Assembly: GCF_006152065.1 (NCBI RefSeq)
Contig: NZ_VDFW01000004.1
Coordinates: 186,001 to 250,000, forward strand
Direction of reading: 5' to 3'
DNA: 64,000 nt
From: Amycolatopsis alkalitolerans
Lineage (GTDB): Bacteria > Actinomycetota > Actinomycetes > Mycobacteriales > Pseudonocardiaceae
Part shown: positions 1,804-48,105 of the stretch, in pieces
How positions within the stretch are numbered: the first letter of the stretch is position 1
How the letters are laid out: each line of letters starts with the position of its first letter
Program-made: the position numbers and the translations under genes
Notes under the pieces: generated by a model
Told to the model about the DNA's origin: nothing
The model's input: only the letters and a program-made list of their open reading frames with translations
Database searches by the model: none

Positions 1804-3234
<1,431 letters not shown>

Positions 3235-3244
3235 CCTTGCCCAT

Positions 3245-3715: not shown

Positions 3716-3786
3716 CCGATAATCGCGAAGCCGGTCATCGGCGCGACCGGGTGCGGGTGTCCCGCAAGACGCAGGAGCGGCCATGA
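3712..3786 (+). CDS. 24-codon bridging mini-ORF between moaC and mog-moaE
   Basis: An ATG at 3712 overlaps the moaC stop as ATGA. The frame then runs 24 codons (starting MTDNREAGHRRDRVRV) to a TGA that again overlaps the ATG of the next gene as ATGA (3783-3786). A short inverted repeat (GATGACCG at 3711-3718 and CGGTCATC at 3732-3739) surrounds its start. The peptide is strongly basic with no recognisable family. The arrangement suggests a translational coupler rather than a functional peptide, but expression is unproven. Confidence 0.35.
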   Translation: MTDNREAGHRRDRVRVSRKTQERP

Positions 3787-6470: not shown

Positions 6471-7532
6471 TCAGCCCCCGATCGCGCTCATCGGCCGGAG
6501 CGGCTGCGCGAATCCGGCGTCGTTGATCTCGTGGCCGGCGAGTTTGCCCCACATCGTCATCCGCCACGCGTCGGCCACCGATTCGTCGCCGAGACCGGAC
6601 CGGAGCAGCCCGCGCAGGTCCGTCTCGTCGTTGCTGAACAGGCAGGAGCGGACCGCGCCGTCGGCGGTCAGCCGGGTGCGCTCGCAGGCGGCGCAGAACG
6701 GCCTTGTCACCGAGGCGATGACGCCCACCTCGCCGGGACCGCCGTCGACCTGCCAGCGTTCGGCCGGCGCGCCACCGCGCTCGACGGGGCTCGGCGTCAG
6801 CTCGAACTCCTTCCGCAGCAGGCCGAGGATCTCTTCCGCGGTCACCATGTCGCGGCGGTTCCAGCCGTGCTGCGCGTCCAGCGGCATCTGTTCGATGAAC
6901 CGGAGGTGGTAGCCATGGTCGAGGCAGAACCGCAGCAGGCTCGCGGCCTCGTGCTCGTTGACCCCGCGCAGCAGCACTGCGTTGACCTTGACCGGGTTCA
7001 GCCCGGCCGCGCGGGCCGCCTCGAGACCGTCCAGCACGTGGGACAGCCGGTCGCGGCGGGTGATCGTGCGGAACGTCTCCGGATCCGTCGTGTCGAGCGA
7101 GACGTTGATCCGGTCCAGCCCGGCCGCGGCGATCCCCGCGGCCCGCTTGGCGAGGCCGATTCCGTTGGTCGTCATGGAGAGCCGGGGCCGGGGCCGCAGT
7201 GCCGCGATGCGGCCGATGAGCCCCTCGAGGCCGGGCCGCAGCATCGGCTCGCCGCCGGTGAGCCGGATGTCGGTGACGCCGAGCCGCTCGACCGCGATTC
7301 TCAACAGCCGCAACAGTTCTTCGTCGGTCAGCACGTCCTCGCCCGGCAGCCACGGGAGGCCTTCGGCCGGCATGCAGTAGGTGCACCGGAGGTTGCACCG
7401 ATCCGTCAGCGAGACCCGGAGATCGGTGGCCACCCGCCCGAAGGTGTCGATGAGGGCCGGGCTGTCCGGCCTTGCTTCGGACACGACATGGGGACCCCGA
7501 AGACGGGGCAGACCGAGATTCACCGCACTCAT
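6471..7532 (-). CDS. moaA: GTP 3',8-cyclase MoaA (radical SAM)
   Basis: A 353-residue radical SAM enzyme converting GTP to 3',8-cyclo-dihydro-GTP in the first molybdopterin step. The CNLRCTYC motif (Cys 46, 50 and 53) binds the SAM cluster; RLTGGEPMLRPG follows; the C-terminal FCAACERTR and a later Cys bind the second cluster; the protein ends SAIGG, the Gly-Gly needed for activity. I choose ATG at 7532 because TAGGCT lies 7 bases upstream, giving a leaderless start; a GTG 24 bases earlier is possible. The divergent neighbour is a MarR gene at 7624. Confidence 0.95.
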   Translation of the reverse strand: MSAVNLGLPRLRGPHVVSEARPDSPALIDTFGRVATDLRVSLTDRCNLRCTYCMPAEGLPWLPGEDVLTDEELLRLLRIAVERLGVTDIRLTGGEPMLRPGLEGLIGRIAALRPRPRLSMTTNGIGLAKRAAGIAAAGLDRINVSLDTTDPETFRTITRRDRLSHVLDGLEAARAAGLNPVKVNAVLLRGVNEHEAASLLRFCLDHGYHLRFIEQMPLDAQHGWNRRDMVTAEEILGLLRKEFELTPSPVERGGAPAERWQVDGGPGEVGVIASVTRPFCAACERTRLTADGAVRSCLFSNDETDLRGLLRSGLGDESVADAWRMTMWGKLAGHEINDAGFAQPLRPMSAIGG

Positions 7533-7623
7533 TGGCACCAGCCTAACCCGAGTCACCCCGGAGCGACGATCACTAGAATATTGAGAACACGCCGTGTTTC
7601 AAGGGCCGGGAGGAAAGCGGTCG

Positions 7624-8106
7624 ATGGCAGTCGAGCCGAGGTACCCGGTGCCGCCCGACGTGCTCGCGCGGTTCGCCGACCTCGGCCGCGAAGGCAGCAC
7701 GCTCGCCGTGCTGCGGCATGCGCGGATCGCGCAGCGGATGGGCCTGTCCGGCACCGATCACAAAGCACTGGATCTGGCCTCGCGCGCGGAAGGGCCGCTG
7801 ACCGCGGGCCGGATAGCCCAGCTCACAGGCCTGTCGACGGGTGCGGTCACGGGTGTCATCGACAGGCTCGAGCGAGCCGGGTTCGTCCGCCGCGTGCGCG
7901 ACCGGCAGGACCGCCGCAAGGTCCTCGTCGAGATCCTGCCCCTCGACGAGGAGAAGTACGCGCCGCTGTTCGACTCGGCGCTGGACGCGGTCGAGCAGGT
8001 GCTCGAAAGGTTCTCGCCGGAGGAACGGGACATAGTGGAACGTTATCAACGCGAGATCCAGCGTCTGATGCGTAACGAGATCCTCGATGAGGGCGCAAGC
8101 GCCTAG
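7624..8106 (+). CDS. MarR-family transcriptional regulator
   Basis: A 160-residue winged-helix regulator. The DNA-binding part is seen at about 55-105: LTAGRIAQLTGLSTGAVTGVIDRLERAGFVRRVRDRQDRRK with the usual DRQDRRK wing. The ATG at 7624 follows GGGAGGA at 7607-7613, and an upstream in-frame ATG at 7594 is less likely. It is divergent from moaA and precedes the molybdate-type regulator and modABC. Its ligand and targets cannot be told from the sequence; local control of moaA or of itself is an inference. Confidence 0.85.
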   Translation: MAVEPRYPVPPDVLARFADLGREGSTLAVLRHARIAQRMGLSGTDHKALDLASRAEGPLTAGRIAQLTGLSTGAVTGVIDRLERAGFVRRVRDRQDRRKVLVEILPLDEEKYAPLFDSALDAVEQVLERFSPEERDIVERYQREIQRLMRNEILDEGASA

Positions 8107-8544: not shown

Positions 8545-9308
8545 AGAAGGTCTTAGCCGTACTGGCCGGTGTCGCGTTGCTGGCCACCGGCTGCGGTTCG
8601 AGCTCGTCCGGCAGCAGCGCGCCACCGGCGAAGACGCTCACGGTGTTCGCCGCGGCTTCGCTGACCGAGTCGTTCAACGCGCTGAAGTCCGAGTTCGAGG
8701 CGGCGCATCCGGGCGTCACGGTGAAGTACGACTTCGGCGGCTCCTCGACGCTCGTACAGCAGATCAACAACGGCGCGAAGGTCGATGTGTTCGCGTCCGC
8801 GGACCAGACGAACATGAACAAGGCGGTGCAGGGCGGGTCGATCGACGGCTCGCCGACGGTGTTCGCGACCAACAAGCTCACCATCGCGGTCGCCCCCGGC
8901 AACCCGAAGGGCATCAAGGGTTTCGCCGACCTCACCAGGCCGGGGCTGAAGGTCGTCGTGTGCGCGGCTCCGGTGCCGTGCGGCGCGGCCACGCAGAAGG
9001 TCGAGAAGGGCACCGGCGTGACGCTCAAGCCGGTCAGCGAGGAGGACGACGTCAAGCAGGTGCTGACCAAGGTCGAGTCCGGGGACGCGGACGCCGGCCT
9101 GGTCTACGTGACCGACGCGAACAGCGCACCCGGCAAGGTGACCCAGGTCGACTTCCCCGAATCGGCACAGGCGATCAACAACTACCCGATGGCCGTGGTC
9201 AAGGGCGCCCCGCAGGTCGATCTCGCGCGGCAGTTCGAGCAGTTCGTGCTCGGCGCGCAGGGCAAGGCCGAGCTGACCAAGGTGGGCTTTGGCACGCCGG
9301 CCAAGTAA
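8541..9308 (+). CDS. modA: Molybdate ABC transporter substrate-binding lipoprotein ModA
   Basis: A 255-residue lipoprotein. It starts with TTG at 8541, overlapping the previous stop as TTGA, with AGGAGGAG at 8529-8536. A signal sequence with the lipobox LLATGC precedes a Ser/Gly tether, then the ModA fold: TLTVFAAASLTESFNALK, YDFGGSSTLVQQI, VDVFASADQTNM, and GLVYVTDANSAPGKV near the end. It captures molybdate (or tungstate) outside the membrane and passes it to ModBC. Confidence 0.93.
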   Translation: MKKVLAVLAGVALLATGCGSSSSGSSAPPAKTLTVFAAASLTESFNALKSEFEAAHPGVTVKYDFGGSSTLVQQINNGAKVDVFASADQTNMNKAVQGGSIDGSPTVFATNKLTIAVAPGNPKGIKGFADLTRPGLKVVVCAAPVPCGAATQKVEKGTGVTLKPVSEEDDVKQVLTKVESGDADAGLVYVTDANSAPGKVTQVDFPESAQAINNYPMAVVKGAPQVDLARQFEQFVLGAQGKAELTKVGFGTPAK

Positions 9309-10104
9309 CCCCGTTCCGCGCGCGAAGGTCCCGTGGGCGCTGTGGGTGCCCGCGGGACTCGCGCTCGCACTCGTCGTGCTGCCGGTCGTCGGGCTGCTGG
9401 TCCGCACGGACCTGAGCCGGCTGCCGTCGCTGATCGTGTCCGACTCCTCACTCGCGGCGCTGCGGCTTTCGTTCGAGACGGCCGCGATGTCGACGGTCGG
9501 GTGCATCGTGCTCGGCGTGCCGCTCGCGGTCGTGCTCGCCCGGTCGGCGGTGCCCGGCATCCGGGTGCTGCGCGCGATCGTGCTGCTACCGCTCGTGCTG
9601 CCGCCGGTCGTCGGCGGGCTGGCGCTGCTGTACCTGTTGGGTCGCAAGGGTTTTCTCGGGTACCTGCTCGACGTGACCCTCGGCGTGACGGTGCCGTTCA
9701 CCACGACCGCGGTGGTGATCGCGCAGACCTTCGTGGCCATGCCGTTCCTCGTGGTGAGCCTCGAAGGCGCGCTGCGGAACGCGGGCGACTCCTATGAACA
9801 GATAGGTGCCACGCTGGGCGCGAGGCCGTGGACGGTGTTCCGCCGGGTCACGCTGCCGATGCTGCTGCCGGCGCTCGGCTCGGGCGCGGTGCTGAGCTTC
9901 GCGCGGTCGCTTGGGGAGTTCGGGGCGACGATCACGTTCGCCGGCAGCCTCGAGGGTGTGACCAGGACGCTGCCGCTCGAGGTCTACACGCAGGTGCAGG
10001 CCGACATCGACAGTGCGGTCGCGGTCGCGCTGCTGCTGGTGGTGGTCGCGCTCGTGGTGATCATCGTGGCGCGCCCACGCGCGGTGGAGGGGGGTGCCGT
10101 GTGA
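9289..10104 (+). CDS. modB: Molybdate ABC transporter permease ModB
   Basis: A 271-residue inner-membrane permease with about five to six membrane segments. It carries the EAA-type loop (YEQIGATLGARPWTVFRRVTLPMLLPAL) that contacts the ATPase, and the ModB signature SFARSLGEFGATITFAGS. The likely start is TTG at 9289, inside the last 20 bases of modA, preceded by AAGGTGG; a later start is possible. Its last codon overlaps the modC start as GTGA. Confidence 0.93.
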   Translation: MARRPSNPVPRAKVPWALWVPAGLALALVVLPVVGLLVRTDLSRLPSLIVSDSSLAALRLSFETAAMSTVGCIVLGVPLAVVLARSAVPGIRVLRAIVLLPLVLPPVVGGLALLYLLGRKGFLGYLLDVTLGVTVPFTTTAVVIAQTFVAMPFLVVSLEGALRNAGDSYEQIGATLGARPWTVFRRVTLPMLLPALGSGAVLSFARSLGEFGATITFAGSLEGVTRTLPLEVYTQVQADIDSAVAVALLLVVVALVVIIVARPRAVEGGAV

Positions 10105-11213
10105 CGCTGCGCGCCGAGATCGAGCTGACCCGCGGCACCTTCGACCTCTCGGTGGACTTCAAGGTACCCGCAGGGTCCGTGCTGGCGATCCTCGGGCCCA
10201 ACGGATCGGGCAAGTCCAGCCTGCTCGGCAGCTTGTCGGGCCTGCTGCGGCCGCGGCGGGCGAAGATCCGGCTCGGGGAGAAGGACCTGCACGGCCTGCC
10301 GCCGCACGACCGGTCGGTGGGGCTGCTGTCCCAGGATCCGCTGCTGTTCCCGCACCTTTCCGTGCTGGACAACGTGGCGTTCTCGCCCCGGTCGAAGGGC
10401 GCCGGGCGGGCCGGCGCGCGGGAGATCGCCCGGCGCTGGCTGGCGGAGGTGGACGCGGCACAGTTCGAGAAGCGCAAGCCGGCGCAGCTGTCCGGCGGGC
10501 AGGCGCAGCGGGTCGCGATCGCGCGGGCGCTCGCCGGTGAGCCGGACCTGCTGCTGCTCGACGAGCCGATGGCCGCGCTCGACGTCGACGCCGCCCCGGC
10601 GATCCGCGGGCTCCTGCGCCGGGTGCTCGGTCTCCAGCGGAAGCGCGCGACCGTGCTGGTCACGCACGATCCGTTGGACGCGCTGGCGCTGGCCGATCAC
10701 GTGCTGGTGCTGACCGACGGCCGCGCGGTGGAGCGCGGGCCGACGCGCGAGGTGCTGGCCGCCCCGCGGACCGCCTTCACCGCGCGGATCGCCGGGCTCA
10801 ACCTGATCGCAGGCATCGCGGTCGGCGGCGGGCTCCGCACGGAGGCTGGGCGGCTGATCGCGGGCATGCTCGCCGAGGACACGACGATGGGTGGACCGGC
10901 CGTCGCCGTGTTCGCGCCGAACGCGGTGGCGGTCTACCCCGGTGGAGAAGCGCATCCGGGCAGCCCGCGCAACACGATCGCCGCCGCGGTGACCGCGCTC
11001 GAACCACACGGTCCGGTGATCCGGCTGCGCACCGACGCGGGCCTCGCCGCCGACCTCACCCCGGCGGCGGTCGCCGACCTGCGGCTCGAACCGGGTACGC
11101 CCGTCCGGCTCGACATCAAGGCGACGACGGTGACCGTTTATCCAGCTACCGCCGGGCCCTCGCCCTCGCCCTCGACGGAGACACTCCGCGTCACGGATAA
11201 TCCCGGAACATGA
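10101..11213 (+). CDS. modC: Molybdate ABC transporter ATPase ModC with TOBE domain
   Basis: A 370-residue ATPase. GPNGSGKSS is Walker [16 protein letters not shown] the ABC signature, [12 protein letters not shown]alker B, and [13 protein letters not shown] the switch His. The C-terminal part from about residue 250 is a TOBE region ([20 protein letters not shown] and [20 protein letters not shown]) that binds oxyanion for regulation. It starts with GTG overlapping modB and ends overlapping the next gene as ATGA. It powers molybdate import. Confidence 0.93.
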
Positions 11214-12007
11214 CCCAGTGGACGTATCTGACCGACATGGACGGGGTCCTGGTGCACGAGGAGCACCTGGTCCCCGGCGCCGACGAGTTCCTCGCCGAGT
11301 TGCGCGCCCACGACACGCCGTTCCTGGTGCTCACCAACAATTCGATCTACACCCCCCGTGACCTGCGGGCGCGGCTGCACCGGACCGGGCTGGACGTGCC
11401 GGAGGACCGGATCTGGACCTCGGCGCTGGCCACCGCGAAGTTCCTCGACAGTCAGCGCCCGAACGGCTCGGCGTTCGTCATCGGCGAAGCGGGCTTGACC
11501 ACCGCGCTGCACGAAGCCGGGTACGTGCTTACCGACCGCGATCCGGACTACGTGGTACTGGGCGAAACGCGAACGTACAGTTTCACCGCGATCACGGCGG
11601 CGATCCGGCTGATCGAAGCGGGTGCGAGGTTCATCGCGACCAACCCCGACGCCACCGGACCGAGCCTCGAAGGCAGCCTGCCCGCGACAGGGTCGATCGC
11701 CGCGCTGATCGAGCGGGCCACCGGCCGCTCGCCGTACTTCGTGGGCAAGCCGAACCCGCTGATGATGCGCTCGGCGCTGCGATCGCTGGGCGCGCATTCG
11801 GAGAGCACGATCATGATCGGTGACCGGATGGACACCGACGTGCACTCGGGGATCGAAGCCGGGCTGCAGACGATCCTGGCGCTCACCGGTATCTCGACGA
11901 AGGAGACCGCGGACCGCTACCCGTACCGGCCGACGATGGTGGTCGACTCGGTCGCGGACCTGGTCGGGCGCACGCAGGACCCGTTCACCGGCGGGCTGGT
12001 CGGATAG
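11210..12007 (+). CDS. HAD-IIA family (NagD-like) phosphatase
   Basis: A 265-residue HAD hydrolase: [10 protein letters not shown] is motif I with the nucleophilic Asp, [12 protein letters not shown] motif [11 protein letters not shown] contains the Lys of motif III, and [18 protein letters not shown] is motif IV. The substrate is unknown; relatives act on nucleotide or sugar phosphates. It overlaps modC by 4 bases, so it is part of the mod transcript, although a GATAAT hexamer 8 bases before the ATG may add an internal leaderless promoter. Confidence 0.88.
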
Positions 12008-29884: not shown

Positions 29885-30994
29885 GTGCGAAAAATTCTAG
29901 TTGCGGTCCTCGCTACTCTCTCCGCGGCGACCCTGGCCGCATGCGGCGGCGCGAGCAGCGGTTCCGGCGGCAGCAAGGAAATCAGGCTGTATGCCGACGG
30001 CGATGTCAACGTGCAGAGCCTGTGGCAGAACACGCTGATCCCCGCCTTCGAAAAGGCCGACCCCGGCTACACCGTCAAGCTCACCTTCGATCTGCACGGC
30101 CAGAACTCCACCACACAACTGGCCAAACTGGGCAGTGCGGTCAAGACGGGCCACGACTTCGGCTTCGACCTGATCGACTCGGGCATCACGACGACAGCGG
30201 CGTCGAGCGGCCTGCTGGCCAAACCGGACGCCGACACTTCCGCCGTCCCGCCGCAGTTGCTCGCCCCGGTGAACGGCATGGCGCTGCCCTACCGCGGCAC
30301 GTCCGTCGCACTGGCCTACGACTCGGCACATGTGACCAGCCCGCCGAAAACGCTCGACGATCTGCTCGCCTGGATCAAGGCGAACCCCGGCGAGTTCACC
30401 TACAATTCGCCCAACAGCGGCGGCTCCGGCCAGTCGTTCGTGACCACCGTGCTGGACAAGTACGTGCCCGCCGACGCGCGCACGAAACTGGCCACGAGCT
30501 ACGACAAGGCCGACGAGAAGTACTGGGCCCAGGGCCTGTCGGCGCTGAAGGACCTCGGCCCGTCCGTCTACCAGCACACCTACCCCAACGGCAACCAGGG
30601 CGTGCTCGATCTGCTCGGCAAGGGGACCATCTGGATGGCTCCGGTGTGGGTCGACCAGGCGCTGACCGCCAAGGCGAAGGGCACGCTGCCCGCCACCGTG
30701 AAGGTCACCCAGATCTCGGACCCGTCGTTCACCGGGCAGGGCGCCTACCTCGGCGTGCCGAAGAACGACACGCGGACCGCCGCGGTGAGCAAACTGCTGA
30801 ACTTCCTGCTCACTCCCCAGGCACAGGCGAGCATCGTGGACGCGATGAACGGGTTCCCGGCGATCGACCTGAGCAAGCTGCCCGCGGGGGAGCAGGCCAA
30901 GTTCGACGGCATGTCCAACAACGACTTCCGGCAGCCGTACCAGTCCAATGTGAACAACGACCTGAACCAGCAGTGGCAGGCGCAGGTTGCGTAG
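29885..30994 (+). CDS. ABC transporter substrate-binding lipoprotein
   Basis: A 369-residue exported lipoprotein (signal ending TLAAC at the lipobox). The mature part is a type II periplasmic-binding fold of the iron/spermidine/phosphonate-like class: IRLYADGDVNVQSLWQNTLI, FDLIDSGITTTAASSGLLAK, MALPYRGTSVALAYDSAHV, and QGAYLGVPKNDTRTAAVSKL. It opens a six-gene operon with a phosphodiesterase and an inositol-phosphatase-like enzyme, so a phosphorylated polyol or glycerophosphodiester ligand is plausible. The start GTG has a poor ribosome binding site. Confidence 0.85.
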   Translation: MRKILVAVLATLSAATLAACGGASSGSGGSKEIRLYADGDVNVQSLWQNTLIPAFEKADPGYTVKLTFDLHGQNSTTQLAKLGSAVKTGHDFGFDLIDSGITTTAASSGLLAKPDADTSAVPPQLLAPVNGMALPYRGTSVALAYDSAHVTSPPKTLDDLLAWIKANPGEFTYNSPNSGGSGQSFVTTVLDKYVPADARTKLATSYDKADEKYWAQGLSALKDLGPSVYQHTYPNGNQGVLDLLGKGTIWMAPVWVDQALTAKAKGTLPATVKVTQISDPSFTGQGAYLGVPKNDTRTAAVSKLLNFLLTPQAQASIVDAMNGFPAIDLSKLPAGEQAKFDGMSNNDFRQPYQSNVNNDLNQQWQAQVA

Positions 30995-31847
30995 CAAGCC
31001 GCTTTTACTGGCCTCGCCGCCGATCCTGGTGATCGCCGCGTTCATCGGCTTCCCGGTGGTCGCCGCGGTGCTCTACACTTTCGGATTCGGCGGCGGGCCG
31101 AACTCGGTGATCGCCGCGATCGCCCAGAACCAGCACCTCGCCTCGAGCGGCACCTTCGCCGCGTATGCCGAGGTGCTCGGCGATCCGCAGGTGCTGCGTG
31201 ACCTGGTGGTGACCCTGGCCGTCACCGTGCTGACCGTGGTCGTGGTGCTGCTGCTCGCGGGCGCGATCGCGCTGCATGTGCGGCTGACCGGGAGCCGGAC
31301 GGCGAAGCTGCTGGCCGCGCTGTCGGTGGTGCCGCTGTTCATCCCGGTGGTCATCGGTGCGTACGCGATCCGTGGTTTCTATGCCTCCGACGGGTTCTTC
31401 CGCACGTTCGCCGAGCACCTCGGCTGGAACGCGCCGACGCTGTCCTACACGATGGGCGCGATCACCATCGGGGAGATCTGGACCAGCGTGCCGTTCGGCG
31501 TGCTGCTGCTGACTTCCGGGTTCGCCGCGGTGCCCGATGCGCAGATCGAGGCGGCTCGTGACGCGGGCGCGTCGGTCGCCAGGACGGTCCGCGCGGTGAT
31601 TCTGCCGATGAGCAGCACGTCCGTCGTCATTGTCACGACGTTCACGGCGATCAACGTGATGGGCAGTTTCACGGTGCCGTACATGACCGGGCCCGCGTCG
31701 CCCAACATGCTCGGCGTCACCATGACGAACTACTTCATCTCGTTCAACCAACCGCAGCAGTCCGAGGTGATGGCGATGGTGGTGTTCGTCGCCGCCGCGC
31801 TGATCGGCGTCTGGTACGTGCGGGCCAACGTGCGGAGCGCGCGATGA
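30987..31847 (+). CDS. ABC transporter permease 1
   Basis: A 286-residue permease with about six membrane segments and an EAA loop (AQIEAARDAGASVARTVRAVILPM). It starts with TTG inside the last 8 bases of the binding-protein gene and ends overlapping permease 2 as ATGA. It forms half the membrane channel of this importer. Confidence 0.87.
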   Translation: MRSKPLLLASPPILVIAAFIGFPVVAAVLYTFGFGGGPNSVIAAIAQNQHLASSGTFAAYAEVLGDPQVLRDLVVTLAVTVLTVVVVLLLAGAIALHVRLTGSRTAKLLAALSVVPLFIPVVIGAYAIRGFYASDGFFRTFAEHLGWNAPTLSYTMGAITIGEIWTSVPFGVLLLTSGFAAVPDAQIEAARDAGASVARTVRAVILPMSSTSVVIVTTFTAINVMGSFTVPYMTGPASPNMLGVTMTNYFISFNQPQQSEVMAMVVFVAAALIGVWYVRANVRSAR

Positions 31848-32650
31848 GGATCGCCGGCCGCGCCGCGCTCGCGCTGTGGGTCGCGCTGGTGGCGGTGTTC
31901 ATGCTCGGACCGCTGGTATGGCTTGCCCTGCGGGCGTTCGTGACGTCCTGGCACTATCCGTCGTGGACACCGGACGGCTGGACCTTGCGGTGGTGGTCGT
32001 TCGTGTTCTCCGGCAACGACCTGTCGTCCTCCGTCGGGCTCTCGTTCACCTTCGCGCCGATCGTGACCCTGGTTTCGGCGGCGATCTGCCTGCCCGCGGC
32101 CTACGCGTTCGCGCGGTTTTCCTTTCCCGGCAGGCGCTTCCTGCTGGTGTCGCTGTTCGCGACCAACGCGTTCCCGAAGATCGGGCTCTACGTCGCGCTG
32201 GCGGGACTGTTCTACGGGCTGAACCTGATGACCACGTTCGCCGGGGTGGTGATCGTGCAGTTGCTGGGCACGATCGTGTTCATGACCTGGATCCCGTCCG
32301 CGGCGTTCGCGGCTGTGCCACGCAGCCTCGAAGAGGCGGCGCGCGACGCCGGGGCCGGGCCGCTCGGCGTGTTCGCGAAGGTGACGCTGCCGCTGGCGCT
32401 GCCCGGGATCGCGACCGCGATGATCATGTCCTTCCTTGCCGCGTTCGACGAGGCACAGGGCACCTACCTGGTCGGCGCGCCCACGTACGTGACCATGCCG
32501 ACGAAGATGTACGAACTCGTCAACAACTATCCGGAGCAGGCGGCGGCGGTGTTCGCGATCCTGCTGGCCGTGCCGTCCACCGTGCTCATGCTGCTGGTCC
32601 GCAAGCACGTCATGGGCGGGCGGCTCGCCGCCGGATTCCAGCTGAGGTGA
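31844..32650 (+). CDS. ABC transporter permease 2
   Basis: A 268-residue permease with six membrane segments and the EAA loop SLEEAARDAGAGPLGVFAKVTLPLALPGI. ATG overlaps the previous stop. The binding-protein-dependent inner-membrane fold and the order with permease 1 are typical of spermidine, phosphonate and Ugp-type importers. Confidence 0.87.
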   Translation: MRIAGRAALALWVALVAVFMLGPLVWLALRAFVTSWHYPSWTPDGWTLRWWSFVFSGNDLSSSVGLSFTFAPIVTLVSAAICLPAAYAFARFSFPGRRFLLVSLFATNAFPKIGLYVALAGLFYGLNLMTTFAGVVIVQLLGTIVFMTWIPSAAFAAVPRSLEEAARDAGAGPLGVFAKVTLPLALPGIATAMIMSFLAAFDEAQGTYLVGAPTYVTMPTKMYELVNNYPEQAAAVFAILLAVPSTVLMLLVRKHVMGGRLAAGFQLR

Positions 32651-32654
32651 GGAA

Positions 32655-33680
32655 ATGGCCGCACTGACCCTGACCGGTGTCACGAAGGAACTCGGTGGCC
32701 GGCGCATCATCCCCGGGCTGGATCTCAAGGTGGAGGCGGGCGAACTGGTGTGCCTGCTCGGCCCGTCCGGCTGCGGGAAGACCACGACGCTGCGGATGAT
32801 CGGCGGGTTCCTGCGACCCGATTCCGGCCGGATCCTGATCGGCGACAAGGACGTCACCGCCGACCCGCCCGAACGGCGGCCCACCGCGATGGTGTTCCAG
32901 AACTACGCGCTGTGGCCGCATATGTCGGTGTTCCGGAATGTCGCGTTCGGACTGAAACTGCGGAAGCTGCCGAAGCGCGAGATCGCCGAGCGGGTGGAGC
33001 ACGCGCTCGGCCTGGTGAACCTGACCCATCACGTGCACTCGTCACCGCACGCGATCTCCGGCGGCGAGCAGCAACGGGTCGCGCTGGCGCGGGCGCTGGT
33101 GCTCGAACCGAAGGTGCTGCTACTCGACGAACCACTGTCCAATCTGGATGCGAAGCTGCGGGTCAAGGTCCGTGACGACATCCGCGAGATCCAGCAGCGG
33201 CTGGGTATCACGACGGTCGTGGTCACCCACGATCAGGACGAGGCGCTGTCCATTTCGGACCGGATCGCGGTGATGAACGCGGGTGCGGTCGAGCAGTACG
33301 CCGGTGGCGCGGATCTGTACGCCCGCCCGGAGACCGGGTTCGTGGCGGAGTTCCTCGGCACGATGAACACGTTCACCGGCACACCCGCCGAGGCGGGAAT
33401 CCTGGTGGACGGCCTGACCGTCCCATGCGCCGGCATCGGCCGAACGGTGGCCGAACCCGTGGAGATCCGGGTGCGGCCGGAGGATGTGCGGCTCACCCCG
33501 GACGGGCCGGGGCCCGCGGGGAGCGTCGTGCGCGAACTGCCCCGCGGGCACTACAAGGAGGTCGTCGTCGAAGTGGGAACCCTGCGGCTCCGGGCCTTCG
33601 TGGCCCCGGATTTCGCGCTGCGAGAGCCGCGCGTCCGGTTTGCGCGGGCGCTCGTCTACCGCGAAGGGCGGCTCGTATGA
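32655..33680 (+). CDS. ABC transporter ATPase (UgpC/PotA class)
   Basis: A 341-residue ATPase with Walker A (GPSGCGKTT), Q-loop (VFQNYALWPHM), signature (ISGGEQQRVALARAL), Walker B (LLLDEPLSNLD) and switch His (VVTHDQDEAL). The region after about 240 is a TOBE domain (VEIRVRPEDVRL). It is the energising subunit of the importer. AGGTGAGGAA precedes the ATG, and the gene overlaps the phosphodiesterase as ATGA. Confidence 0.9.
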   Translation: MAALTLTGVTKELGGRRIIPGLDLKVEAGELVCLLGPSGCGKTTTLRMIGGFLRPDSGRILIGDKDVTADPPERRPTAMVFQNYALWPHMSVFRNVAFGLKLRKLPKREIAERVEHALGLVNLTHHVHSSPHAISGGEQQRVALARALVLEPKVLLLDEPLSNLDAKLRVKVRDDIREIQQRLGITTVVVTHDQDEALSISDRIAVMNAGAVEQYAGGADLYARPETGFVAEFLGTMNTFTGTPAEAGILVDGLTVPCAGIGRTVAEPVEIRVRPEDVRLTPDGPGPAGSVVRELPRGHYKEVVVEVGTLRLRAFVAPDFALREPRVRFARALVYREGRLV

Positions 33681-34366
33681 GCACGCTCGCGATCGCGCAC
33701 CGCGGCGATCCGCACGGACATCGTGAGAACACCGTGCCCGCGGTGCTCGCCGCCCTGGAACAGGGCGCCGACCTCGTGGAGATCGATCTCGCGCTTACCC
33801 GCGACGGAACGGTCGTCCTGCTGCACGACCGCACGCTGACCCGGCTGTGGGCCCGTGATGTGCCGGTCGCCGACGCCGACTTCGCCGAACTGAGGCGGAA
33901 CCGGCACGGGCGGTACGAGATTCCCGGCTTCGAGCAGGTGATGCGCCTGCTGGTCGCGGGTGACGGCGGGCTGATGGCGGACCTGCCGGTGCCCGCCGCC
34001 GCGGAACCCACGGCGGAGATCGTCGCCCGCTACGACGCTTTCGACCGGACGGTGTTCGCCGGGCACCTGGACAGCCTGCGGCGGGTGCGGAAGCGGTGGC
34101 CCGAGGCGCGGATCGCGCTGTCGTGGAACGAGCCGGAGTTACCGGCGGCGGAGTTGCTGGCCGAACTGAAGCCGGAGTTCTTCAATCCACAGTGGACGCT
34201 GCTGACGCGGGAGGTGGTCGAGCGTATGCACGAACTCGCGCTGCGCGTGTCGACCTGGACTGTGGACAGCCCGAGCAACATGGCGCGGATGCTCGAAATG
34301 GGGGTGGACGCGGTGATCACCAACCGGCTGCGGCACTTCCTCTCGCTGCGGGAGGAAGGCGAGTGA
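33677..34366 (+). CDS. Glycerophosphodiester phosphodiesterase
   Basis: A 229-residue GDPD-fold enzyme with AHRGDPHGHRENT at the start (His8, Arg9, Glu17, Asn18), VEIDLALTRDG (metal-binding Glu35 and Asp37) and LLHDRTLTR with the second catalytic His50; the C-terminal VSTWTVDSPSNMARMLEMGVDAVITN is typical. It would split glycerophosphodiesters into glycerol 3-phosphate and an alcohol. No signal peptide is seen, so it acts in the cytoplasm on imported substrate, as UgpQ does in the E. coli ugp operon. Confidence 0.9.
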   Translation: MSTLAIAHRGDPHGHRENTVPAVLAALEQGADLVEIDLALTRDGTVVLLHDRTLTRLWARDVPVADADFAELRRNRHGRYEIPGFEQVMRLLVAGDGGLMADLPVPAAAEPTAEIVARYDAFDRTVFAGHLDSLRRVRKRWPEARIALSWNEPELPAAELLAELKPEFFNPQWTLLTREVVERMHELALRVSTWTVDSPSNMARMLEMGVDAVITNRLRHFLSLREEGE

Positions 34367-35136
34367 GCGAGTACCTGTACTTCGCGGAGGAACTCGCGCT
34401 GTGGGCGGTCGACCGGATCCGGCAGCGGCGGCCCGCGACGGTGTCCACGAAGAGCGGGCCCGCGGACTTCGTGACCGAGACCGACCTCGACGTGGAACGC
34501 GAGGTGCGGGCGAGGATCGCCGAACGCTACCCCGGGCACCGGATCGTCGGTGAGGAGTACGGCACGAGCGGTGGCGGGGAGCCGACCTGGTACGTCGATC
34601 CGGTCGATGGCACGACGAACTTCGCGCACGGCCTGCCGTGGTCGTCGTTCAGCCTTGCGGTCGCGGACTCGGCGGGCGCGCTCGCCGGAGTGGTGGCCGA
34701 CCCGTCGCGCGGCGAGGTGTTCGGCGCGTCGCGGGGCGGCGGCGCCCGGCTCGACGGCAGGCCGATCCGGTGCGCGGACACCCGCGAGTTGCCCGGGGCG
34801 CTGGTGCTGACCGAATGGGCCGCCTGGCGGCCTTGGCCGGGGCAGAACGAGCTTCTCGCGGCGCTGGCGGCCGAGCAGTGCACGACGAGGGTGCTCGGTT
34901 CGTCGGCGCTGTCGCTGGCCAGCGTCGCGGCGGGGCGCGCGTCAGCGGTGGTGCTCGGCGGATACTCCACTTTGGACGTCCTCGCCGGGGTCCTGCTCTG
35001 TCGCGAGGCGGGATGCGCGGTGCTGGGCCGCGACGGCCGCGAGACCGTCCTACCCGCCGCAGGCGATGGCGGCCTGCTCGCCGCACCCCCCGCCCTCGCC
35101 CAGTCCATCCGCGAGTTGGGCTTCCGCCGCGGGTGA
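34363..35136 (+). CDS. Inositol monophosphatase-family phosphatase
   Basis: A 257-residue Mg-dependent phosphatase of the IMPase/SuhB superfamily: STKSGPADFVTETD, GEEYG (Glu64-65) and the signature WYVDPVDGTTNFAHG (Asp79 to Asn86). The final motif usually WD is STLDVLAG here: the Asp is present but the Trp is not. The GTG start overlaps the phosphodiesterase stop as GTGA. Likely substrates are inositol phosphate or glycerol phosphate; the operon context favours inositol phosphate from glycerophosphoinositol breakdown. Confidence 0.87.
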   Translation: MSEYLYFAEELALWAVDRIRQRRPATVSTKSGPADFVTETDLDVEREVRARIAERYPGHRIVGEEYGTSGGGEPTWYVDPVDGTTNFAHGLPWSSFSLAVADSAGALAGVVADPSRGEVFGASRGGGARLDGRPIRCADTRELPGALVLTEWAAWRPWPGQNELLAALAAEQCTTRVLGSSALSLASVAAGRASAVVLGGYSTLDVLAGVLLCREAGCAVLGRDGRETVLPAAGDGGLLAAPPALAQSIRELGFRRG

Positions 35137-36516: not shown

Positions 36517-37281
36517 TCAGCCGAAAGCCCCGGCGACGGGAGCCGTCTCCAGGGAGATCCCGAAATACGTCCGGTACGCCTCGAGGACCTCGTCCGGCGA
36601 GAGCTCCCGCTCGACCCGCTTCCCGTCCACCGTCTCGATCAGCTGGTCGCCGGTCAGGGTCACCCGGCCCGAACTCGTCGGGAGCGTGCACAGCAGACCC
36701 TGGGTGAAATGCGAGTCCGGGGACGTCGCCTGCCACCAGCAGGACGGCACGAAGTCCTCGAGCTCCCGCGCCCGCTGCTCGAGCCGGTACGCGGGCTCAC
36801 CGTTGTGCCGGACGTCGATGTCTCCGCCCGCGGCGTCGAGGAGCATGAACTCGCCTTCGGCGTCGGCCTGTGGCTCGCATGCGGCCAACCGCAACGGCCG
36901 CCGCGCGAACCGGCCGAAGCCGACGTCCGCCAGCCACGGTTCGTCGAGGTCGACGCGCAACGTCAGGTGATCGAACGGCGCGCCGAACCCGTCGCCGCCC
37001 CTCGAAACGCGCGCGGGCAGCAGCGAGACCGCGAACCCCAGTTCCCGCAGCAAAGCCGCGAACGCCCCGTTCAGTTCGTAGCAGAACCCGCCGCGCCGCC
37101 GCCGGACGATCTTCTCGACCAGCTTCTCCTCGTCGAGGACGATCGGCTCCCGCAGGTGCACGCTGAGGTTCTCGAAGGGAACCGTCGTGACGTGGCGCTC
37201 ATGCAGGTCCGCCAGCGCTTCCGCGGTCGGCGCGGACGGCCGGGCGGCGCCGATCCGGGCGAGATAGCCATCGACATCCAT
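36517..37281 (-). CDS. nat: Arylamine N-acetyltransferase
   Basis: A 254-residue NAT that transfers acetyl from acetyl-CoA to arylamines or hydrazines. The catalytic triad is complete: Cys67 in RRGGFCYELNGAF, His105 in FDHLTLRV and Asp119 in WLADVGFG. ATG at 37281 lies 6 bases after the -10 hexamer GAATGT of a MerR-type promoter that overlaps the stop codon of the upstream MFS gene. NAT enzymes act on xenobiotics or in lipid and antibiotic metabolism; which applies here is unknown. Confidence 0.92.
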   Translation of the reverse strand: MDVDGYLARIGAARPSAPTAEALADLHERHVTTVPFENLSVHLREPIVLDEEKLVEKIVRRRRGGFCYELNGAFAALLRELGFAVSLLPARVSRGGDGFGAPFDHLTLRVDLDEPWLADVGFGRFARRPLRLAACEPQADAEGEFMLLDAAGGDIDVRHNGEPAYRLEQRARELEDFVPSCWWQATSPDSHFTQGLLCTLPTSSGRVTLTGDQLIETVDGKRVERELSPDEVLEAYRTYFGISLETAPVAGAFG

Positions 37282-43247: not shown

Positions 43248-43304
43248 AACGCAGAACAAGTCCCGGTGAGGGCGTGCTCAGAGTGGGTGGTTAGGTTGCT
43301 GGGC

Positions 43305-44231
43305 ATGTCGGATGACTGGTTCGGTCGCCGGGTCGTGGTGACCGGTGGCAGCGGGTTCATCGGCCGTGCGGTGGTGGCCGCGCTGTGCGAGCGCGGGGCG
43401 GCGGTGACGGTGGCCGACCGCGAGCCGTTTCCCGACACTCCCGGCGTGCGATCGGTGGCCGGCGATCTCACCGACCCCGAGGTGCGGCGCGAGGCCGTGG
43501 CACCCGGCACGACGGCGATCGTGCATCTCGCGGCGGTGACGTCGGTGCTGGGGTCGGTGGACGCCCCAGTACGCACCTTCGACGACAACGTGGCGGTGAC
43601 ACAGGGGTTGCTCGAGCTGGCGCGGGAGCGGGCGGTAGCGCGGTTCGTGCTCGCGTCGACGAACGCGGTGACCGGCAACGTGGGTACGAGCACGATCTAC
43701 GAACAGCTGCCGTTGCGGCCGCTTACCCCGTACGGGGCGACGAAGGCGGCATGCGAAATGCTCATGTCCGGGTACGCGGGCGCGTACGGGCTGGGCACGT
43801 GCGCGTTGCGGTTGACCAACGTCTACGGCCCGGGAATGTCGCATAAGGACAGTTTCGTGCCGCGGCTGATGCGCGCCGCGCTGTCCGGCGACCGGGTACG
43901 GATTTACGGGGACGGCCGGCAGCGGCGCGATCTGGTGCACGTCGACGACGTGGTCGCCGCGATGCTGGCCGCGGTCGAGACCGACTACAGCGGCACGGCG
44001 ATCGTGGGGTCGGGCCGGTCGGTGTCCGTGCTGGAACTGGTGGCGGCCGCGCGAGAGGCGACCGCGTGCCCGCTGCCGGTCGACCACGTCGAGGCGCCGG
44101 CGGGCGAGATGCCCGCCGTGATCGTGGATACCTCCCGCGCCGCCGAGGCGCTCGGCTACCGGTCCCGGGTCGGGCTGACCGACGGGCTGGCGAGCACCTG
44201 GCAGTACTTCCGGGAAACGGGACCGGCATGA
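43305..44231 (+). CDS. NAD-dependent epimerase/dehydratase
   Basis: A 308-residue short-chain (extended SDR) sugar-nucleotide enzyme: VVVTGGSGFIGRAVVAAL for NAD binding, catalytic Thr/Ser in ASTNAVTGN and the PYGATKAACE motif (Tyr-x3-Lys), GDGRQRRDLVHVDDVV for the sugar nucleotide. Its precise product is unknown. ATG at 43305 is 7 bases after TAGGTT, so leaderless. It overlaps the glycosyltransferase as ATGA, which suggests that it makes that enzyme's sugar donor. Confidence 0.88.
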   Translation: MSDDWFGRRVVVTGGSGFIGRAVVAALCERGAAVTVADREPFPDTPGVRSVAGDLTDPEVRREAVAPGTTAIVHLAAVTSVLGSVDAPVRTFDDNVAVTQGLLELARERAVARFVLASTNAVTGNVGTSTIYEQLPLRPLTPYGATKAACEMLMSGYAGAYGLGTCALRLTNVYGPGMSHKDSFVPRLMRAALSGDRVRIYGDGRQRRDLVHVDDVVAAMLAAVETDYSGTAIVGSGRSVSVLELVAAAREATACPLPVDHVEAPAGEMPAVIVDTSRAAEALGYRSRVGLTDGLASTWQYFRETGPA

Positions 44232-46405
44232 CGGCGTCGTTGCGGCGGCACTGGCTCATCACCGTTCTGCTGGTGGCCGGGCTCGTGCTGCGAGTGCTGG
44301 TGTGGCTGGCTTATCAACCGGCACTGCTGTACATCGACTCGTTTCGCTACCTGGAAAACCTGACGGCGATGCGGCCCGATCAGCTCAACCCGATCGGCTA
44401 CGACCTGATCCTGCGGCCACTGCTCGCGGTGGGTGACCTGGCGTTCGTGGCCGCGGTTCAGCATGTGCTGGGGCTGGCGCTGGGAGTGGCCCTGTATGCC
44501 CTCGCCCGCCGGCTGGGCGCGAGGGCGTGGGTCGCGGCGCTGGTCGCGGTCCCGGTGCTGCTGGACGGTTACCAGCTGCAGATCGAGCAGAACATCATGG
44601 CCGAGGTGTGGTTCGACGCGCTGCTCGTCGCCGTGCTGTGGCTGTTGCTCGCTCGCGGTGTGCCGGGCTGGCGGAGCGCCGGTGTGGCCGGGCTCCTGGT
44701 GGGATTCGCGGTGCTGGTGCGGCTGATCGGGATCACCCTGGTCGTGCCGTTCGCCGTGTACCTGCTGCTGGCCGGCGGCTTGCGGGTGGGCTGGCGGCGC
44801 ATCGCCGCACGAACCACGGCGGGACTGGTCGGTTGCGCGCTCGTGGTGGGCGGCTACGCCGCGTATTTCGCTTCGGTGACCGGGTCCTGGGGGGTCTCGA
44901 CCTCGTCGGGCAACGTGCTCTACGGCCGCGCCGCCGTGGTGGCCGACTGCGGCGAGTTGAAGCTGGACGACACGCTGCGGGCGCTATGCCCGGCGGAACC
45001 GCTCGGCCAGCGTCAGGGAGTCGACTACTACGCGCACCTCGACACGGTGCCCGGATGGCCTCCGGTGCCGGTTCCCCCGGGGGAGACGTCGCAGCAGCTG
45101 ATGCACGAGTTCGGGATGGCGGTGGTGCGCGCGCAGCCCTGGGACTTCGCGCGGGAGGTGCTGGGCGACTTCGCGAAGGGGTTCGCCTGGTCGAAGACCA
45201 CGTCGCCCAATGACGTGCCGGTGGAGCGCTGGCAGTTCCAGACGACGTACCCGACGTTCGACTTCACCGACGCGTCCAGCGTCACCCGGCCGCTGGACGG
45301 TGTCGATCCCTCCGTCGATCCCGCGCTGGCGGGCTTCCTGCGCGGTTACCAGCTCAGCGTCGGCTACACGCCGGGCCCGCTGCTGGCCGCCGCGGGGCTG
45401 CTCGGGCTCGCCGGGCTCGCGCGCCGCCGCGGAAGGTTGCGCGGGGCGGCGCTGCTGACCACCGGCAGCGCGCTGGTCCTGCTGGGTGGCGCGGCGGTGT
45501 TCGAGTTCTCCTGGCGTTACCAGCTACCGGGCCTGGTGCTGCTGCCGCTGGCCGGGGCGATCGGGTTCACCGCGCTCACCCGCTACCCGAAGCTCGATCC
45601 GTTCCCGGATGCGGTGGACAGCGCGTCCCTGGCGGCATTCCACCAGCGGTACGGGACACCCCGGCTGGCGGAGGTGACCGTCGTGATCGCCGCCTACAAC
45701 GAGGAGAACGGGCTCGGGCCGGTGCTGGACGCCATGCCTCGCACCAGTCACGGCATGGACGTGGACGTGCTCGTCGTGGTGGACGGTGCCACCGACGCGA
45801 CCGCCGCCGTCGCCGAGCACGGCGCGTACGTATGCGCCGCACCGCGCAACCGGGGGCAGGGCGCCGCGCTGCGGCTGGGCTACCAGCTTGCTTCCGAGCT
45901 CGGGGCCCGGTACGTGGTCACCACCGACGCCGACGGCCAGTATGACAACAGCGAGCTTCCCACGCTGCTGGCGCCACTGCTCGAGGGCACTGCGGACTTC
46001 GTCACGGGCTCTCGCCGCCTCGGCCACGAGGACGCCGACAGCCGGTTGCGCTGGCTGGGGGTGCGGGTGTTCGCGCTGCTGGCGTCGATCCTCACCCGGC
46101 GCCACCTGACCGACACCTCGTTCGGGTTCCGCGCGATGCACGCCGATCTCGCCCGCGACGTCACCCTCGCCGAACCCCAGTACCAGTCCTCCGAACTGCT
46201 GCTCGGGGTGCTCGCCCGCGGCGCGCGGGTGGTGGAGCTGCCGATGACGATGCGGCTGCGGAAGGCCGGCAAGAGCAAGAAGGGCCGCAACGTCGCCTAC
46301 GGTGCGAACTACGCGCGGGTCATGCTCTCCACCTGGTGGCGCGACCACATCCGGAAGACCACCCGGTCCAGCAGCGCGAACTTCACCGCGAAGATCACCA
46401 CGTAG
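44228..46405 (+). CDS. Two-domain membrane glycosyltransferase (GT-C plus GT2)
   Basis: A 725-residue protein. Residues 1 to about 500 are a polytopic GT-C-like region (about ten helices; YIDSFRYLENLT near 35-47 resembles the acidic first loop motif) with a large extracytoplasmic loop. Residues about 535-700 are a cytoplasmic GT2 domain: TVVIAAYNEENGLGPVLDAM, VVVDGATDATAAVAE, the nucleotide-binding TTDADGQYD, and TSFGFRAMHADLA, as in polyprenyl-phosphate sugar transferases. It may both make and use a lipid-linked sugar for envelope glycans. The 3' 97 bases overlap the GtrA gene on the other strand. Confidence 0.87.
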   Translation: MTASLRRHWLITVLLVAGLVLRVLVWLAYQPALLYIDSFRYLENLTAMRPDQLNPIGYDLILRPLLAVGDLAFVAAVQHVLGLALGVALYALARRLGARAWVAALVAVPVLLDGYQLQIEQNIMAEVWFDALLVAVLWLLLARGVPGWRSAGVAGLLVGFAVLVRLIGITLVVPFAVYLLLAGGLRVGWRRIAARTTAGLVGCALVVGGYAAYFASVTGSWGVSTSSGNVLYGRAAVVADCGELKLDDTLRALCPAEPLGQRQGVDYYAHLDTVPGWPPVPVPPGETSQQLMHEFGMAVVRAQPWDFAREVLGDFAKGFAWSKTTSPNDVPVERWQFQTTYPTFDFTDASSVTRPLDGVDPSVDPALAGFLRGYQLSVGYTPGPLLAAAGLLGLAGLARRRGRLRGAALLTTGSALVLLGGAAVFEFSWRYQLPGLVLLPLAGAIGFTALTRYPKLDPFPDAVDSASLAAFHQRYGTPRLAEVTVVIAAYNEENGLGPVLDAMPRTSHGMDVDVLVVVDGATDATAAVAEHGAYVCAAPRNRGQGAALRLGYQLASELGARYVVTTDADGQYDNSELPTLLAPLLEGTADFVTGSRRLGHEDADSRLRWLGVRVFALLASILTRRHLTDTSFGFRAMHADLARDVTLAEPQYQSSELLLGVLARGARVVELPMTMRLRKAGKSKKGRNVAYGANYARVMLSTWWRDHIRKTTRSSSANFTAKITT

Positions 46406-46785
46406 CTGGCAAGGTACGCGGCGTCGAGCACCACGACCGACCAGACGTGCGGCAGCGCGAGCGGACCGATCAGCCATCCGGTGAACGTGGTCAGGCCGAC
46501 CGAAGCGAGGCCGCCGGCGGCGATCACCGCCACATACGGCAGCGTCTCCCCGACCATCCGGGGCCGGCCCCGGCGTCCCCACGCCCAGCGGCGGCTCAGC
46601 AGATAATTCGGCACCGCGCCCGCGAGGAAGGCCAGCGTGCTCGCCAGTGCCGGGCTCGCATGCCCCCAGCCGAGCAGGGCGAGCAGTGTTATCTGGGACA
46701 CCCCCGTCGCCAGTACGGAACTCGCCAGTGCCCTCGTGATCCGCCCCAGCACTCGTGGGCCGCCGTCGTGCAGAACCGTGGCCAT
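46309..46785 (-). CDS. GtrA-family membrane protein
   Basis: A 158-residue protein with four membrane helices and family motifs FLAGAVPNYLLSRRWAWG and VVIFAVKFALLDRVVF. GtrA proteins help flip or position lipid-linked sugars for glycosylation, which agrees with the GT2 domain next door. ATG at 46785 gives the family-length protein. It is convergent with the glycosyltransferase and overlaps its 3' end by 97 bases. Confidence 0.85.
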   Translation of the reverse strand: MATVLHDGGPRVLGRITRALASSVLATGVSQITLLALLGWGHASPALASTLAFLAGAVPNYLLSRRWAWGRRGRPRMVGETLPYVAVIAAGGLASVGLTTFTGWLIGPLALPHVWSVVVLDAAYLASYVVIFAVKFALLDRVVFRMWSRHQVESMTRA

Positions 46786-46947
46786 GCGCTCATCTTTCCC
46801 CGCGCCCCGGCTCGGCGGCGGGCGGGGTTGCTTTCTCAAAATGATCTCAGGAACTTCTTGGCTTTCTCTTAACAAACGTCAAGTTCACGTTCGGTAAAGT
46901 CACGCGGACAGAACGGAAATTCCGAACAGGGGGAGGCGGACGGTTCT

Positions 46948-48105
46948 ATGCGGGTTCTGGTCTTGGGCGGAGACGGGTACCTCGGCTGGCCAACCGCGTT
47001 GCATCTCTCTGATGCGGGATACGACGTCGCGGTGCTGGACAACCTGGCCCGTCGCGGCTACGACGAGGAGCTCGGCGTCGACAGTCTGGTTCCCATCGCC
47101 GATCTCGAAACCCGTGTCACCGCGTGGGAACAGGTGTCGGGCCGGCGGCTCGCGTGCTACGTCGGAGACCTGCTCGACGCCGAGTTCGTCCTGGACACGG
47201 TGCGGGAGTTCGCGCCCGGGGCGATCGTGCATTTCGCCGAGCAGCGCGCCGCGCCGTATTCCATGATCGACCGGGCCCATGCGGTCTACACCCAGCACAA
47301 CAACGTCATCGGCACGCTGAACCTGCTGTTCGCGATCGCCGAGACCGACCCGGACATTCACCTGGTCAAGCTGGGCACGATGGGTGAGTACGGCACCCCG
47401 GACATCGACATCGAAGAAGGCTGGCTCGAGATCGAGCACAACGGCCGCCGCGACCGGATGCTCTATCCGAAACGACCGGGCTCGTTCTACCACCTGAGCA
47501 AGGTGCACGACTCGCACAACATCGAGTTCACCTGCCGCGTCTGGAGCCTGCGCGCCACCGACCTCAACCAGGGTGTCGTGTACGGGCAGCAGACCCCGCA
47601 GACCGCGCGCGACGAACGGCTCGCCACCCGCCTGGACTACGACGCCGTGTTCGGGACCGTGCTCAACCGCTTCGTCATCCAGGCCGTCCTCGGCCAGCCG
47701 CTGACCGTCTACGGCGGCGGCGGGCAGACCCGCGGTCTGATCGACATCCGCGACACCGTCGAATGTATCCGCCTCGCCGTCGAACACCCCGCCGCCCGCG
47801 GCGAGTTCCGGGTGTTCAACCAGATGACGGAGGCCATGTCCGTCGCGCAGATCGCCGACGTCGTCGCCGAAGCCTTCCCGGGGCCGGTCCACATCGACCA
47901 CCTCGACAACCCCCGTGTCGAAGCGCCCGAGCATTACTACAACGTCAAGCACACCGGGCTGGTCGAACTCGGTCTCCAGCCACACCTGCTCGGCGACACC
48001 CTGCTCGAGTCCCTGTTCGACATCGTCGCCACCCACAAGAACCGCGTCGAGTCGGAGGCGCTGCAACCACAGATCCGCTGGCGCGCACCTGTGGACCAGG
48101 GCTGA
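46948..48105 (+). CDS. UDP-sulfoquinovose synthase-like epimerase (SqdB/SQD1 family)
   Basis: A 385-residue extended SDR enzyme strongly like SqdB/SQD1. It has VLGGDGYLGWPTALHLSDAG, KLGTMGEYGTPDIDIEEGW with Thr144 and Glu147, FYHLSKVHDSHNIEF with Tyr181 and Lys185, and RATDLNQGVVYG, all close to the plant enzyme's active-site blocks. The expected reaction is sulfite plus UDP-glucose to UDP-sulfoquinovose. The conserved blocks are much closer to SQD1 than to ordinary epimerases. No lipid transferase (SqdX) is next to it; the nearest glycosyltransferase is at 44228. ATG follows GGGGGAGG. Confidence 0.8.
   Translation: MRVLVLGGDGYLGWPTALHLSDAGYDVAVLDNLARRGYDEELGVDSLVPIADLETRVTAWEQVSGRRLACYVGDLLDAEFVLDTVREFAPGAIVHFAEQRAAPYSMIDRAHAVYTQHNNVIGTLNLLFAIAETDPDIHLVKLGTMGEYGTPDIDIEEGWLEIEHNGRRDRMLYPKRPGSFYHLSKVHDSHNIEFTCRVWSLRATDLNQGVVYGQQTPQTARDERLATRLDYDAVFGTVLNRFVIQAVLGQPLTVYGGGGQTRGLIDIRDTVECIRLAVEHPAARGEFRVFNQMTEAMSVAQIADVVAEAFPGPVHIDHLDNPRVEAPEHYYNVKHTGLVELGLQPHLLGDTLLESLFDIVATHKNRVESEALQPQIRWRAPVDQG

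Follow-up and report, generated by a model that had tools for sequence, protein, structure and literature searches.

Several ABC (ATP-binding cassette) importers are known that stand beside enzymes acting on phosphodiesters. The UgpBAEC importer is paired with the phosphodiesterase UgpQ, and we know of no enzyme of the inositol monophosphatase (IMPase) family that belongs to Ugp. A region on an Agrobacterium Ti plasmid (L093) carries a regulator, a solute-binding protein (SBP), two ATPases, two permeases, a glycerophosphodiester phosphodiesterase (GDPD) and an IMPase, which we take to be the acc genes for agrocinopine, with AccA-E as the transporter, AccF as the phosphodiesterase and AccG as the phosphatase. 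In mycobacteria an importer of phospholipid head groups is also paired with a GDPD (UgpABCE with GlpQ1); according to excerpts of PMC12722247, glycerophosphocholine is among the polar heads that UgpABCE imports, and an M. tuberculosis glpQ1 mutant shows marked enrichment of glycerophosphoinositol along with other head groups. An excerpt of PMC7761784 links UgpB with glycerophosphocholine, and one of PMC12807533 concerns another sugar phosphodiester used as food. Here a unit of six genes is described at 29885-35136 of a 64,000-base stretch of the Amycolatopsis alkalitolerans genome (the window; C34:186001-250000 in an assembly of 6.78 Mb and 84 contigs). As in acc, a GDPD-family and then an IMPase-family gene come behind the ABC importer, and the unit very probably is a phosphodiester importer with two-step hydrolysis. 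A substrate that has myo-inositol as one of its halves is somewhat favoured, and glycerophosphoinositol leads the candidates. The phosphodiester part is well supported and the inositol part moderately so.

All six open reading frames (ORFs) are on the forward strand; four of the junctions overlap (by 8, 4, 4 and 4 bases) and one has a gap of 4 bases. The first encodes a YnjB-like solute-binding lipoprotein (29885-30994; 369 amino acids, GTG start, lipobox recognised by eye, Pfam SBP_bac_8). It overlaps by 8 bases the gene for permease 1 (30987-31847; TTG start), which overlaps that for permease 2 (31844-32650) by 4 bases, both products belonging to Pfam BPD_transp_1. After the 4-base gap there is a PhnT2/PotA-like ATPase (32655-33680; 341 amino acids, ABC_tran), and this is followed, each time with a 4-base overlap, by a GDPD-family phosphodiesterase (33677-34366; 229 amino acids, Pfam GDPD) and an IMPase-family phosphatase (34363-35136; 257 amino acids, GTG start, Inositol_P). 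An original prediction, made from the window alone, had described six genes in one overlapped run and named their families; the position and spacing are as it had them, and Pfam agrees with all six names.

The prediction also called for a search for the same gene order in other genomes. By tblastn with the six proteins, the order SBP-permease-permease-ATPase-GDPD-IMPase was found in 13 other fetched loci (L026-L032, L034-L038 and L040), and there are additional loci besides. These span actinomycetes of several families. The two enzymes are a single ORF, encoding a fusion of about 500 amino acids, in 40 of the 45 loci where both were detected. The first set comprised 45 loci, some of them truncated where a contig stops; 27 yielded both enzymes, fused in 22 and separate in 5 (the window and L026-L029). 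In a further set, from family f51, they are fused in all 18 loci with both. The fused set includes three near-identical loci from Curtobacterium and also L078, which was excluded from the GDPD alignment because its GDPD start is apparently out of frame. In a FastTree phylogeny built from the four transporter proteins after concatenation, the fused loci group in a single clade (branch support 0.999), therefore one fusion event is enough to account for them. As a general inference from gene fusion, the product of one enzyme would be the substrate of the other. Conserved order and fusion thus support the predicted grouping of importer, phosphodiesterase and phosphatase as one functional unit. In one locus (L025) no GDPD was found, and a CehA/McbA PHP-type hydrolase (2364-3689) lies directly upstream, in the GDPD's place.

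Within its own genus the cassette is isolated. A close relative of the SBP is lacking in all 18 congeners: for 14 there is no match at 0.001, and for the other 4 the matches are local and weak (E 2e-9 to 5e-4). At E 1e-30 the SBP was found in two other genomes of the 61 searched, both outside the genus, in 6 of 397 genomes of the order and in 8 of 394 of the class, the source genome being included in all three sets. The flanking genes, both named by eye as MFS-like (major facilitator superfamily) and arylamine-N-acetyltransferase-like (36517-37281), occur in all 19 genomes of the genus. They are 6927 bases apart in the window and 1126-1669 bases apart in 12 of the 18 congeners; in the other six the distances are 2052, 2694, 2893, 4453 and 78128 bases, and in one genome the genes are on different contigs. 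Without the 5252-base cassette the distance would be 1675 bases, close to the short spacing of the congeners, and insertion is therefore the simplest reading. It looks as if the cassette was gained by insertion between two genus-conserved genes. With the order kept in other loci and this apparent insertion, the layout is more than chance, and the cassette is real, conserved and apparently mobile.

No component reaches a Ugp or UgpQ cut-off, so the suggestion of a Ugp-type system is not sustained: the UgpC model PRK11650 gave 309.8 bits against the ATPase (cut-off 432), the UgpE model PRK10973 gave 20.2 and 31.2 bits against the permeases (cut-off 297), and PRK09454, which we take to be the UgpQ model, gave 66.5 bits against the GDPD (cut-off 264). 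The ATPase had been placed in a UgpC/PotA class; the NCBIfam ranking is PhnT2 (344 bits), PotA (320) and UgpC (310), each under its cut-off. The nearest curated models are PotB/PotH for permease 1 and PotC for permease 2, both below cut-off, and among the models listed (the best 25 for permease 2 and the ATPase) all of those for Pot, Phn and Thi importers are below cut-off. For the SBP the nearest curated model is YnjB (PRK11622; 104.4 bits, cut-off 203), which was matched at E 1e-10 by 21 of 21 aligned SBPs; thiamine-type SBPs are also among its nearest curated models. The AlphaFold model of the window SBP (mean pLDDT 88.2) has a putative 2-aminoethylphosphonate binder as its top Foldseek match, and the profile matches of the SBP are iron and polyamine binders. 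The likeness to YnjBCD of E. coli lies in the SBP and does not reach the cut-off. YnjC is a single fused permease whereas the window has two separate ones, and we know of no substrate for YnjBCD. The AfuABC sugar-phosphate importer differs too, with 12% identity, and to our knowledge its operon has no GDPD or IMPase.

Both enzymes are clear members of their families, at 126.5 bits to PF03009 for the GDPD (gathering cut-off 23.6) and 168.3 bits to PF00459 for the IMPase (cut-off 27). The alignments cover part of the loci, with 19 actinomycete GDPD rows and 22 cassette-type IMPase rows from outside the f51 loci L120-L137. The GDPD motif residues have assigned catalytic and metal-binding roles, and functions are likewise assigned to the Lys of the E/D-x-K motif and to the canonical Glu of the IMPases. 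The window GDPD keeps both catalytic histidines (HRG and HD) and the E..D metal pair, and has D-L-P at the E/D-x-K motif. The two histidines and the E-x-D pair are conserved in 19 of 19 rows, with Asp as the third ligand. The window IMPase keeps its metal ligands (GEE, DPVDGT and a later Asp). No signal peptide is visible by eye in either enzyme, reading without a prediction program, therefore both should act in the cytosol. Identification of the IMPase as SuhB (PRK10757; 114.5 of 332 bits) or as HisN (TIGR02067; 119.4 of 275.15 bits) was rejected, both scores being below the curated equivalog cut-offs.

The inositol half of the substrate, as originally predicted, finds backing in the genes around the cassette elsewhere: iolB and iolD adjoin it in 10 of the 41 carriers of two families (f40 and f51), and iolD is enriched among the carriers of both. 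In f40, 151 genomes were searched and the 22 carriers, defined by the SBP at E 1e-30, have genomes of 1.1-2.0 Mb. Here iolD was found at E 1e-150 in 46 genomes, 18 of 22 carriers versus 28 of 129 non-carriers (Fisher p 9e-8, overstated as shared descent is ignored); under the curated iolD cut-off the carrier G792 (partial) and the non-carrier G777 are lost. Each of the 22 carrier loci was followed to contig limits, at least four stretches being contigs of 8.1 kb or less, and both iolB and iolD are within the stretch in nine (L031/L075, L077-L083 and L092). The order in L081 is fusion, ATPase, permeases, SBP, DUF6454, IolE-like and ROK-type kinase, continuing on the opposite strand with iolC, iolB and iolD, after which there are an IolE-like gene and a glycoside hydrolase (GH) gene. 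The iolC, iolB and iolD products are over their curated cut-offs and the IolE-like proteins below.

Among the 299 f51 genomes searched, 19 are carriers (SBP at E 1e-60) and 105 have iolD at E 1e-150, 14 of 19 carriers versus 91 of 280 non-carriers (Fisher p 7e-4, overstated for the same reason). Linkage to iol genes is rare in this family, being found at 1 of 19 loci (L129). There iolB (over cut-off), iolD, IolE-like and Gfo/Idh genes share the strand of the SBP and are located before it, and a gene for a GntR-type regulator lies between them in the opposite orientation. The L129 iolD (1839-3736) has its halves in different reading frames (416 and 414 bits), through a frameshift or an assembly error. 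In the first 13 carriers, iolD is over cut-off in 11, the others being G047, with partial matches at contig ends, and G664. The window's genome has two iolD over cut-off (C45:279592-281445 and C21:64246-66084), neither on the cassette contig. As 31 of the 61 genomes among the window's relatives have iolD, its presence says little for the window's own lineage.

The proposed sequence of events is as follows. The lipoprotein would bind the diester outside the cell, the two permeases and the ATPase would import it, the GDPD would cleave it in the cytosol and the IMPase-family enzyme would take the phosphate off the monoester product. The cell would thus gain inositol, glycerol (or glycerol 3-phosphate) and phosphate. 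We infer the substrate, the cytosolic reaction sequence and which half keeps the phosphate; glycerophosphoinositol is a candidate for the bound ligand and other phosphodiesters would fit too. Put forward more tentatively, as a little short of probable, is the fuller proposal of a dedicated inositol-phosphodiester uptake and breakdown system, of which many members have a bifunctional GDPD-IMPase that makes inositol, glycerol and phosphate from glycerophosphoinositol, feeding the iol pathway, and which is passed from one actinomycete to another as a cassette of five or six genes.

Several observations weigh against the inositol proposal. There is no iolD at threshold in 9 of the 41 carriers of f40 and f51, and iol neighbours are absent beside the window's cassette. 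In the 19 aligned actinomycete GDPDs of the cassette, the Lys of E/D-x-K has throughout given way to Pro, Glu, Asp or Thr. This Lys is present, by alignment, in AccF, in paralog 2 of the window's own genome and in L042, L043 and L046, and, as read by eye, in the Deinococcus and Enterococcus relatives; paralog 1 of the own genome has no clear alignment at the site. The canonical IMPase Glu, which in the solved IMPases compared precedes the last metal-binding Asp by seven residues, is absent from all 22 cassette-type rows and from AccG. It is present at the same site in L041 and L043 and gap-shifted in L046, while L039 has a Glu two residues later. The predicted inositol phosphatase stands as regards its metal ligands and not as regards this Glu. 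Both losses suggest altered specificity and argue against a plain inositol-1-phosphatase.

The missing Glu would be less of a difficulty for a general scavenger of glycerophosphodiesters, in which the GDPD would release any alcohol along with glycerol 3-phosphate, and dephosphorylation of the latter by the IMPase-family enzyme would supply phosphate. Such a system would also suit the nine carriers without iolD, and GDPDs classically release glycerol 3-phosphate. There is a precedent in M. tuberculosis, where, according to an excerpt of PMC12722247, a distinct glycerol-3-phosphate phosphatase (Rv1692) acts after a GDPD. However, a general scavenger would not be expected to show iolD enrichment in both families or iol genes beside the cassette, and the Ugp models stayed below cut-off; we regard it as unlikely, if deserving of serious consideration. 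The acc operon, which is the closest functional parallel, suggests instead a sugar-phosphodiester system with import, cleavage to a sugar phosphate and dephosphorylation by an IMPase-like enzyme. In acc too the imported phosphodiester is cleaved inside the cell by enzymes encoded adjacently behind the importer, and AccG shares the lack of the canonical Glu with the cassette IMPases. The f40 clusters also contain a ROK-type kinase and a GH gene whose product resembles glucosylglycerate hydrolase, below cut-off.

The acc transporter is of a different type, however, an oligopeptide-type one with two ATPases and its own regulator where the window has one PotA/PhnT-like ATPase. AccF keeps E-L-K in its GDPD motif while the cassette GDPDs are without the Lys, and the acc enzymes are separate genes for which another substrate is expected. 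Furthermore, the carriers include genomes of 1-2 Mb, judged unlikely to live on opines, and the recurrent neighbours are iolB, iolC and iolD, with no pentose genes noticed. A sugar-phosphodiester system is the less probable of these two alternatives, and an improbable one. An importer of polyamine, thiamine or aminoethylphosphonate to which two unrelated enzymes became attached by chance would agree with the nearest models (PotB, PotC, PotA, PhnT2 and the thiamine-type SBPs) and with the Foldseek and profile matches of the SBP. As the listed Pot, Phn and Thi models are all below cut-off, and the two enzymes accompany the transporter from family to family and occur fused, this is very improbable indeed; chance attachment of the GDPD and IMPase is itself rejected on account of the conserved order and the fusion.

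Going by record titles and taxonomy lines, the transporter has relatives in five phyla at least (Actinomycetota, Pseudomonadota, Deinococcota, Bacillota and Chloroflexota). In Deinococcus (L097), a CehA/McbA gene (6489-7817) is followed by SBP-permease-permease-ATPase-GDPD. The Enterococcus order (L098) is GDPD-permease-ATPase-SBP-permease-hypothetical-CehA/McbA, the last at 10476-11471. Two rhizobial loci have an IMPase within about 3 kb of the transporter on the opposite strand. A divergent GDPD is present behind the ATPase in L043 and L046, with an IMPase nearby, and upstream of the transporter there is an IMPase in L039 and a PHP-type (CehA/McbA) hydrolase in L044 (7776-9125). The picture is not uniform: in L047 no phosphoesterase was found, though IolE-like and IolG-like genes are present. 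Locus L045 is cut by a contig end. A phosphodiester ligand would thus be the common theme of the transporter family, and inositol its theme in part. There are 216 plasmid records with an SBP match, and the neighbourhoods were read in four.

On a Marinovum plasmid (L094) and a Neorhizobium plasmid (L095) a different ABC importer, of sugar type, a regulator and an IMPase are in one run, which in L094 also holds an annotated GDPD. Such pairing apparently extends to several kinds of transporter.

Phosphatidylinositol is abundant in eukaryotes and actinomycetes. Among the matches listed in open-licence full text, with most subscription papers outside that scope, there was no bacterial importer dedicated to a glycerophosphoinositol-type remnant, and none described a GDPD-IMPase fusion or operon system in its title or abstract start. 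If the proposal is true, it would provide a ligand class for a transporter family spanning at least five phyla, a new bifunctional enzyme architecture that is directly assayable and a route for small-genome actinobacteria to recycle inositol and phosphorus. Of greatest interest is the GDPD-IMPase fusion in the relatives.

Some further features of these loci are noted. In five f40 loci (L081, at 9256-10107, L034, L080, L087 and L088) the SBP gene has a neighbour encoding a DUF6454 beta-propeller protein. This protein was modelled to check for phytase likeness (mean pLDDT 79.1) and the fold search was uninformative, the best Foldseek matches being glutaminyl-cyclase propellers at a query TM score of 0.57-0.58. 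The GH protein and ROK-type kinase are found in the f40 inositol clusters L081 (16427-17707 and 11050-11829, respectively), L075, L078, L080 and L083, and may serve inositol glycosides. As a sign of phosphate-starvation control, a direct-repeat GTTCACC box was sought up to 300 bases upstream of the SBP genes. The window scored no better than shuffled sequence, 69% of 100 shuffles reaching its score, and 7 of the 27 SBP genes scanned, several with guessed start codons, had 11/14 matches, reached by 3% of shuffles or fewer. Elsewhere in the window, an ORF run at 43266-48105 includes, by eye, an NAD-epimerase-like and an SQD1-like protein and is perhaps a glycolipid or sugar-nucleotide cluster.

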